From: Candidatus Thiodiazotropha endoloripes
GTDB lineage: Bacteria; Pseudomonadota; Gammaproteobacteria; Chromatiales; Chromatiaceae
Assembly (NCBI RefSeq): GCF_001708965.1
Contig: NZ_LVJW01000006.1
Span: 372,001 to 436,000 of the forward strand
DNA length: 64,000 nt
Direction of reading: 5' to 3'
The notes under the pieces were generated by a model. The model saw nothing but the letters and a program-made list of their open reading frames with translations, had not been told where the DNA came from and ran no database searches. Of this stretch, positions 11,549 to 62,838 are shown piece by piece. The translations under genes were made by a program, and so were the position numbers. Positions within the stretch are counted from its first letter, which is position 1. The number at the start of each line of letters is the position of its first letter.

Positions 11549-11580
11549 TAGGGCCTGTTGACACTAATCCAATACGCCCT
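11549..11580. repeat. Solo arm of the dispersed palindromic element
   Basis: TAGGGCCTGTTGACACTAATCC starts at 11549 and continues into AATACGCCCTG. It matches one arm of the palindromes at 13524 and 62293 with few changes. No second arm follows. The arm supplies the stop codon and last residues of the neighbouring monooxygenase gene on the minus strand. Confidence 0.75.
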
Positions 11581-11863
11581 GCTCATACTGTTTAACCAGT
11601 TTGACCACCTCGACCTGGTACGAACGATACCATTTTTCACGCCCCATCCGCTGCGCCTTTAAATGGACCTGATCACGCTTCCACTTAACAAACTGTTCCT
11701 CGTCTCGCCAATAGGAGATCGAAATTTCTCGATCCCCCTCCTGGTAAGATTCAAACGAACTACAACCATACAACTCCATCGCGCGGGACCTCAGCTGTGA
11801 AGCTGTTTCGTAGTAGCTGGAATCGAGGTCGGCTATCACAGCTTTAAAGATGACGGCATACAT
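11564..11863 (-). CDS. Antibiotic biosynthesis monooxygenase-like (ABM domain) protein
   Basis: A 99-residue small protein of the dimeric alpha/beta-barrel ABM fold. Typical elements are the start MYAVIFKAVIADLD, the central FESYQEGDREISISYW and WYRSYQVEVV. Relatives are cofactor-free monooxygenases or stress proteins of unknown substrate. The last residues (about QGVLD) and the stop lie inside a solo arm of the dispersed repeat, so the original C-terminus may have been replaced by the insertion. It follows hyuB on the same strand with a 50-bp gap, and may be co-transcribed. Confidence 0.75.
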   Translation of the reverse strand: MYAVIFKAVIADLDSSYYETASQLRSRAMELYGCSSFESYQEGDREISISYWRDEEQFVKWKRDQVHLKAQRMGREKWYRSYQVEVVKLVKQYEQGVLD

Positions 11864-13523: not shown

Positions 13524-13587
13524 CTAGGGTCCATTAACACGAATCCAGTACGTCCTGCCGGGACTGGATTCGTGTTAACGGACCTAG
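13524..13587. mobile_element. Complete palindromic miniature element, copy 1
   Basis: An inverted repeat with arms 13524-13549 and 13563-13587 around a 13-base centre. The left arm begins CTAGGGTCCATTAACACG and the right arm mirrors it with one base missing and one mismatch. Both ends sit in CTAG. It lies between the divergent hyuB and sodB genes, and matches the perfect copy at 62293-62358. No coding capacity. Confidence 0.8.
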
Positions 13588-45123: not shown

Positions 45124-45151
45124 GGGCCTGTTAACACGAATTCAATGCACT
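45124..45151. repeat. Solo arm of the dispersed palindromic element
   Basis: GGGCCTGTTAACACGAATTC and following bases match one arm of the palindromic family, starting 21 bases after the argF stop. The outer CTAG/TA is not preserved on the left (CACCTG) and no second arm follows, so the copy is decayed or partial. Confidence 0.65.
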
Positions 45152-50300: not shown

Positions 50301-50336
50301 AGGGCCTGTTAACACGAATCCAATAGGTCCTAACAA
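50301..50336. repeat. Solo element copy with its own short inverted ends
   Basis: TTAGGGCCTGTTAACACG starts the copy and AGGTCCTAA closes it. It comprises one arm of the family, but the ends TTAGGGCCT and AGGTCCTAA are themselves inverted (8 of 9), with TA at both sides. It begins four bases past the ptsP stop. This may be a single-arm derivative that transposed or was resolved by recombination. Confidence 0.7.
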
Positions 50337-61869: not shown

Positions 61870-62074
61870 ATGTCTGAAAGGCAAACCGGAACCGTCAAGT
61901 GGTTCGACAGCGCAAAAGGTTCTGATTTTATCGAACGTGAAGCAGGAAAAGACCTGTTTTTTTCCGTTCAATCGTTGCTGAAGGTCATCGCGACCTGACA
62001 GAGTGTGAAAAGGTTGAATTTTCCGAAACTGCGGGCCAGAAAGGCCCTCAAGCGGAACTGTCGTGCTCATGTAG
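61870..62074 (+). pseudogene. Broken cold-shock domain protein gene
   Basis: The start MSERQTGTVKWFDSAKGSDF is that of a CspA-type protein (RNP1 region normally KGFGFI). After KDLFF the frame ends early, but a shifted frame continues FRSIVAEGHRDLTECEKVEF, then SETAGQKGPQAEL, and a third frame gives VVLM and a TAG stop at 62072-62074. At least two frameshifts and an altered RNP1 core show that the gene is inactive, unless sequence errors are responsible. Normal products are RNA chaperones of about 69 residues. Confidence 0.75.
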
Positions 62075-62166
62075 CCTGTTGTATTAAAGCGAACTCTGCC
62101 TTATCAGTGGCAGAGTTCCACATCTCATTTATGATGGCTTGAATCTGTACTGCCACATATAGATCA

Positions 62167-62525
62167 ATGTTCATACATCGACAAAAGGCAAAACACATTG
62201 ATAATACTCTCAGTGCGCGGCCTACCAGGATCGACTACAGAAGAATTTCTGGCCTCCCGCTTTTCAGAACACGAACGGTTCGTTCCCTCAAGCTAGGGCC
62301 TGTTAACACCAATCCAATGCGCCCTGTTGCGCATTGGATTGGTGTTAACAGGCCCTAGTAAAAGATCTCTTTTCCGGTGAGTCCAAGGGCTTTGCGACCC
62401 TCGATATGGAAGGTCATGAGGCACGCGCAACTCTCGCAGCACTAAACAACAGCAACCTCAATGGAAGCACGATCCGTGTCGGACCCGATAGAGTAACTAA
62501 AGGGCGTAGCGGCAGGCGACGTTAG
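62167..62525 (+). pseudogene. RRM RNA-binding protein gene split by a palindromic element
   Basis: A single RRM domain gene of about 90 codons, broken in three or more ways. The first part reads LIILSVRGLPGSTTEEFLAS then RFSEH, then after a frameshift TVRSLKL. At 62293-62358 the palindromic element is inserted; directly after it the frame resumes as LVKDLFSGESKGFATLDMEG and ARATLAALNNSNLNGSTIRVG, ending in SGRRR and TAG. The SKGFATLDM segment is the RNP1 motif. Early frame also needs correction near the ATG. Such single-RRM proteins in gammaproteobacteria bind RNA under cold stress. Confidence 0.75.
62293..62358. mobile_element. Complete palindromic miniature element, copy 2 (perfect 30-bp arms)
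   Basis: A perfect 30-bp inverted repeat, arms 62293-62322 and 62329-62358, with a six-base loop CCTGTT. Ends are CTAG on both sides. It interrupts the RRM gene: CTA precedes it and CTAGTAAAAGAT follows, so removing the 62-bp insert between the TA pairs restores the frame. This is a direct demonstration of insertion with duplication of TA (or CTAG). IS630/Tc1-mariner transposases prefer CTAG and duplicate TA, so this is probably a non-autonomous derivative. No transposase is seen in the window. Confidence 0.85.
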
Positions 62526-62838
62526 AATAATGGCGAACAGATTCGTTTACTCTATTGTCCACTTTTTTGCCGCCAGTTGTCTGAAGCCTTTACTTCCTTG
62601 CGACCGCTGTTCAGCATCTCCGGTCTGTCGCCGAATCCAGTGACTGGCAAGTGTGCGACCATTGCGGACGGTCAGTAATCGGGATTAATGGCACTCAAAT
62701 ACGGCAATCCTTCTCATGCATTGTGGAATCCCGGACTTTTCATTTGAAAGAGCTGGGGGGGGGGGGGATTTCGGAACCAACAAGTTTTCTTTCAGGCACT
62801 TACCAGCATGGTAATTAGGAGTTATACGCCGGAGATGT
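62526..62838. other. Intergenic region with a 13-G tract
   Basis: About 313 bp without a recognised gene. A run of 13 G lies at 62755-62767, about 75 bp downstream of the racemase stop. A tract of this length is prone to slippage and to sequencing error. Confidence 0.5.

Follow-up and report, generated by a model that had tools for sequence, protein, structure and literature searches.

Bacterial MITEs are short, non-coding elements with long terminal inverted repeats and a target duplication, which reach a high copy number in the absence of a transposase of their own. The family described here shares all of these features, but it differs from the known MITEs in that many of its copies in the genome under study are replication-polar scars. 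REPINs, another class of repeats of this sort, need RAYT transposases and have REPs of the GTAG type, whereas the present family has TA flanks and arms of ~27-30 bp. Both are inverted-repeat mobile units with single-arm forms, which for REPINs are called remnants in the passages of PMC3116915 on REP singlets, and the polarity of the singlets is not mentioned in those passages. With the IS630/Tc1-mariner elements the family has in common a TA target, but DDE_3 is unmatched in the genome under study.

To our knowledge, strand preference in the deletion of palindromes is known mainly from engineered constructs, and lagging-strand instability of palindromes in E. coli was reportedly described by Trinh and Sinden in 1991. 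In PMC4245961, a perfect 460-bp palindrome in E. coli forms hairpins on both strands/templates, and the lagging-strand instability, that of engineered constructs, consists mostly of breakage. By comparison with this work, the MITE scars would record, naturally and across whole genomes, which arm survives. A search of the literature, with most subscription papers outside its scope, brought up neither replichore-polar MITE scars nor this family.

A palindrome in a decayed RRM gene

The window, that is, the whole stretch of 64,000 nucleotides analysed (G000:C6:372001-436000), belongs to a genome of 4.46 Mb in 12 contigs. The product of a gene next to the palindrome is 97% identical to a protein of Candidatus Thiodiazotropha endoloripes, a symbiont of lucinid clams. 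As an earlier note on this DNA had described, positions 62293-62358 hold a perfect inverted repeat with arms of 30 bp and a loop of six bases (CTAGGGCCTGTTAACACCAATCCAATGCGC-CCTGTT-GCGCATTGGATTGGTGTTAACAGGCCCTAG), with CTAG at both ends. Folded as RNA with 10 flanking bases per side, the palindrome reaches -61.7 kcal/mol, compared with a mean of -19.4 for shuffled sequences (z -13.7; 0/200 shuffles reached the same energy). A comparison with plasmids gave no match to the palindrome locus.

The proposal of the same note that a miniature mobile element breaks an RRM gene is supported by five RRM paralogue loci (in the window genome, G002, G009, G010 and G021), which lack the element and read CTCAA(A/G)CTGGTAAAAGA uninterrupted at its position. 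An intact RRM paralogue of the window genome lies at G000:C6:481286-481555, and the join of TVRSLKL with LVKDLFSG across the palindrome matches it (TVRSLKLVKDLFSGE). The continuous RRM that the join had been said to restore exists locally but not overall, given that the first half of the RRM is in a different frame from the rest. The preceding cold-shock ORF is likewise broken, so this RRM copy is a pseudogene for causes beyond the insert. The features of the window are collected in Table 1.

Table 1. MITE-derived features and the interrupted gene pair in the window (positions are those of the window)
Feature	Position	Strand	Evidence or remarks
60-bp palindromic MITE remnant	62296..62355	.	Perfect repeat, fold, longer G009 element at same site
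TA, left copy, within CTAG	62294..62295	.	Empty sites elsewhere have a single TA
TA, right copy, within CTAG	62356..62357	.	Element-free paralogues have CTGG here
Decayed cold-shock-domain and RRM gene pair, frameshifted and interrupted	61870..62526	+	Comparison with paralogue and relatives
29-bp polar scar between TA and TA	50302..50330	+	Same MITE family
One-ended remnant	45124..45151	+	Scar-type in G002 (2 mismatches) here; none in G009, G010, G021
One-ended remnant, left arm retained	11551..11582	+	Same MITE family
Second solo palindrome, more degraded, TA-flanked	13527..13584	.	Same MITE family

A family of TA-inserting MITEs

The palindrome has many relatives within its own genome, and the further copies that the earlier note suggested looking for were found. 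It represents a decayed member of a mostly TA-inserting MITE family that has spread through Ca. Thiodiazotropha. Across 22 genomes of this genus, a query that included RRM sequence gave matches in 22/22, with element ends in 18/22; G012, G016, G018 and G019 had RRM matches only, among the matches listed. The intact element measures ~265 bp and reads TA-GGGCCTGTTAACACNAATCCAAT...ATTGGATTNGTGTTAACAGGCCC-TA, with two hairpin modules. Intact copies of the complete genomes G005 and G008 begin with TA and GGGCCTGTTAACACTAATCCAAT, continue with the two hairpin modules and finish with an inverted copy of the same end and TA. In G008 the ends of numerous copies are identical. The family ends have GGGCC beside the TA (also written TA-GGGCCTGTT), and 13/14 of the two-ended copies examined in these two genomes are flanked by TA on both sides.

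Terminal inverted repeats on a non-coding element of ~265 bp and many dispersed copies are features of MITEs that this family displays, and target duplication shows in the comparison of TA...TA in G001 and the window genome with the single TA of the empty sites in G005 and G021. Such empty sites back TA as the duplicated target, in agreement with the duplication that had been proposed for the palindrome and with the CTAG at its two ends. Folded as single-stranded DNA, a full copy of the window genome reaches -97.2 kcal/mol (z -16.4). Rfam searches with the four loci L001, L010, L012 and L018 found nothing with an E value of 1 or less.

Variation in length was also observed. Some elements are lengthened in steps of ~27 bases, with versions of 265/292/319/345 bp (G005 and G008; L133, L135, L137, L138 and others), and several GGCGC-like positions within the MITE hold a 27-base hairpin sequence (CCCCAAGGGCACTTCCTTCGGGG core), possibly a nested mini-insertion. 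At the short end, G000:C3:5333-5746 (L122) carries a perfect 18-bp palindrome, TA-GGGCCTGTTAACAGGCCC-TA, which seems to represent a minimal form of the element left by deletion, and G005:C1:2199784-2200227 (L130) carries a perfect 44-bp family palindrome between clean TA flanks.

Mobilisation by IS630, as put forward in the earlier note, found no support: the PF13358 (DDE_3, IS630) profile had 0 matches in the window genome, for which reason this source was rejected, and in the genus it had matches in 3/22 genomes and none in 19/22. Among four IS630 loci of relatives, two of them cut by contig ends, none has a pair of family ends and one has a single end-like sequence; in this locus (L293 of G010) TAGGGCCTGTTAACTC lies ~1.2 kb from the match to the IS630 transposase, with the second end absent in the locus. 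An IS4/IS5 source was discarded as well, the lone PF01609 match of the window genome, IS4-like by eye and with one internal stop, being without family ends. Opposed end pairs 0.5-4 kb apart number 11 in the fetched loci, and inspection of seven of these pairs by eye showed no transposase. A partner transposase was not found in the families searched (PF01609 and PF13358).

Broken copies and 29-bp scars

At up to 2 mismatches, the 14-base end GGGCCTGTTAACAC occurs at 258 places of the window genome, including 73 exact matches. The strands of the listed places run in long blocks along the contigs. The 73 exact ends comprise 45 that are single-ended, 22 with a second end in reach and 6 unreadable, under a two-ended test that allowed up to 4 mismatches and probably included about four chance partners. 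Among the broken forms, the most frequent is a 29-bp scar, GGGCCTGTTAACACNAATCCAATNGGCCC-TA, made up of one arm and the last bases of the other arm. Base 24 of the scar is mostly A in the window genome (by eye) and C in 16/23 scars of G005, among the matches listed, and 6/8 scars of G008 have CCGATAGG; longer elements with matching variants in the region of base 24 are present in the same genomes as the variant scars. Since base 24 varies between genomes, we place the join in GGCCCT and take the first part of the scar to derive from the inner arm.

The dinucleotide to the left of the scar is TA in 23/39, CA in 11/39 and others in 5/39 copies of the window genome, and TA in 28/30 of those in other genomes. 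The 11 copies with a CA left flank (within L083-L121) have CCAGGG in place of CTAGGG. A change of CTAGG to CCAGG is the expected outcome of very-short-patch repair, of which these flanks are possibly a signature.

Different deletion states at orthologous sites

At the RRM site, the palindrome had been regarded as the inserted unit itself, a view that is weakened by the orthologous locus of G009, which carries a longer element from the same starting base, with the left arm and module A, then a part of module B and a jump into the 3' part of the RRM. In G002, whose locus matches T. endoloripes, there is a deletion instead of the element. In view of the longer G009 copy, the palindrome looks like the product of an internal deletion, in place, of an older insertion. 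One reading of its sequence is a left arm, up to and including CCTGTTGCGC, fused with the right-arm ATTGGATT at GCGC, which is present in both arms of some copies.

Other sites likewise differ in state between genomes. The site of C3:1110234 is empty in G021, with a single TA, and a scar of G001 corresponds in G005 to a clean single-TA site (flanks 97/98%). At C6:942968 the window genome keeps the left arm and module B, followed by the right flank joined at a CTGAAAAG-like sequence common to element and flank, for which G002 has CTGAAAAAG; this site is empty in G002, G009, G021 and G011, and its dinucleotide is TA in G002, TG in G009 and G021, and CA in G011 and the window genome. At C6:938661 the same left end remains in the window genome, G002, G009 and G021, and the losses on the right differ. 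At a further site, empty in the window genome, G002 carries a scar, and left-arm remnants of greater length are present in G009, G010 and G021. At no site does a complete two-ended 265-bp element in one genome correspond to a 29-bp scar in another, the scars being compared with long one-ended remnants. One scar site is common to G001, G004 and G005 (L317, L300 and L129). Its variant bases differ in G001 at two subfamily positions, a difference for which independent scarring or conversion may account.

Strand polarity of the scars

Nearly all scars are found on the C-rich strand, i.e. the lagging-nascent strand, and therefore read toward oriC. Replichores were assigned from the GC skew, sampled at 20 places each in the window genome, G005 and G008, with cut points set after the lists had been viewed, and from a DnaA ORF found by motif. 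Two DnaA-like ORFs, identified by their motif, lie at ~2.95 Mb in G005, at the sign change of the skew, and at C6 ~1.215 Mb in the window genome, close to the skew switch.

In the window genome 31/32 scars with up to 1 mismatch and 47/49 with up to 3 are on the C-rich strand, among the matches listed (the best 100 of 107 places); the exceptions are C3:27219 and C6:817150. With 50 hand-listed TA-ending places and the origin set at the DnaA ORF, 47/50 agree. For G005 the counts are 11/13 and 20/23 at the same thresholds, and 21/26 when any TA ending is allowed (23 of the 26 end in CTA), all among the matches listed (the best 100 of 106). Two of the three G005 exceptions, G005:C1:3594780 and 3618967, are 24 kb apart, and a local inversion would explain both. 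All scars of G008 (8/8) follow the rule. Seven further genomes have the expected sign of the local 3-kb skew at 29/30 scar loci, these being the loci given out of 40 scars in 7/11 genomes; L305 (+0.004) is the miss and L314 agrees at no more than +0.002. No exact scar was found in the other 4/11 genomes searched (G013, G014, G015 and G018). The scar sets overlap and some sites are common to several genomes, as is the one ancestral site of L129, L300 and L317, so that the counts across genomes are not all independent.

The polarity varies with the class of copy. Among the exact 14-mers of the window genome, the C-rich strand carries 26/26 of the scar class, which includes some copies extending beyond the 31-mer, 16/19 of the other one-ended copies and 13/22 of the two-ended ends. 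Single-ended places that do not end in CTA, a mixed class of the 31-mer list, give 30/40, among the matches listed. As to the replichore assignment, C3 has at 2.30 Mb a skew of +0.015, contrary to the replichore assigned, the cut of C3 at 1.71 Mb determines one place (C3:1730931), and the scar on C9 was excluded, skew sampling being absent there. At the 50302 site of the window, G010 retains about ten bases that resemble the opposite end, contrary to the rule.

Two sources of polarity were rejected by direct counts. Module A comes first on the C-rich strand in 21/42 of the two-ended elements of G005 and G008 (42 of 44 could be typed), which indicates that insertion is not polar and discards the orientation of insertion as the cause. 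The long ORFs (at least 110 codons) flanking 26 scars of the window genome are on the same strand in 24 cases and on the opposite one in 26, so the direction of transcription does not explain the polarity either.

A replication model and its alternatives

We consider it quite likely that these MITEs decay by strand-specific hairpin deletion at replication, the palindrome of the window and the scars included. Being an interrupted inverted repeat, the element can form a long hairpin, and it would do so when its strand becomes single-stranded at the fork. We infer a mechanism of slippage, in which deletions would arise between short direct repeats: an internal slip would produce the 60-bp palindrome, the 29-bp scar would result if the inner GGCCCT in the arm copied first, on the nascent lagging strand, slipped to the terminal GGCCCTA, and longer slips into the far flank would give the one-ended remnants. 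On the lagging template, the polymerase would move into the first arm and re-pair at a repeat past the hairpin, leaving the arm that is observed. On the C-rich, lagging-nascent strand it is nearly always the 5' arm that survives, so that the scars are directed toward oriC. As a mirror event on the leading strand would yield the same product, we infer the strand of origin.

Polarity might instead be a matter of insertion, if the 29-bp unit were itself mobile and inserted the same way round each time, single-stranded DNA at the fork being one conceivable target. Its high copy number, and the TA found on both sides of many scars as for a separately inserted unit, would agree with this reading, which we nevertheless regard as unlikely: scar variants at base 24 and nearby differ by genome and are shared with longer elements of the same genomes, indicating several origins of the scars, the scar site of G002 has longer left-arm versions in three relatives, and two-ended elements lack an orientation bias. 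The scar could also be a functional polar motif (KOPS-like, terminator-like or a segregation signal) with its orientation kept by selection. Known replichore-polar motifs show strong polarity, and that of the scars resembles it, but the scars are often absent or different at orthologous sites, with one kept in G001, G004 and G005, their orientation is independent of the strand of neighbouring genes and many are degenerate, all of which makes such a function very unlikely.

A transposase acting at the fork, through one-ended cleavage or abortive excision of one strand, could in principle generate the polarity in place of polymerase slippage and would fit the exact outer ends kept in the scars. 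Nonetheless, this explanation is highly improbable, as the joins fall at short direct repeats (CTGAAAAG-like and GGCCCT) that lie apart from the outer tips, the one-ended remnants continue into the flank, and no such enzyme was found in the transposase families searched. We give the least credence to a palindromic mini-element mobilised by IS630/Tc1-mariner and inserted in its present form, for which the TA within CTAG at both ends and the single end-like sequence near one IS630 locus of G010 would speak: G009 has a longer element at the same site, and PF13358 is unmatched in the window genome and in 19/22 genomes.

Implications for palindrome loss in natural genomes

Deletion of palindromic MITEs at the fork would explain their erosion to one-armed repeats, and it advises caution with short replichore-polar repeats, which are not necessarily functional motifs. 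Here a natural family, inserted many times in each genome, appears to yield a replicated and strongly one-sided outcome, by which the strand, the repeat length required and the genes involved become testable through genome comparison. It is likely that decaying palindromic transposons are natural recorders of replication direction, deletion keeping the same fork-relative arm with hardly an exception, so that each chromosome carries tens of 29-bp arrows directed at the origin. Such scars would mark the direction of replication in draft genomes and, if the model is true, they show which strand loses palindromes in vivo over evolutionary time.
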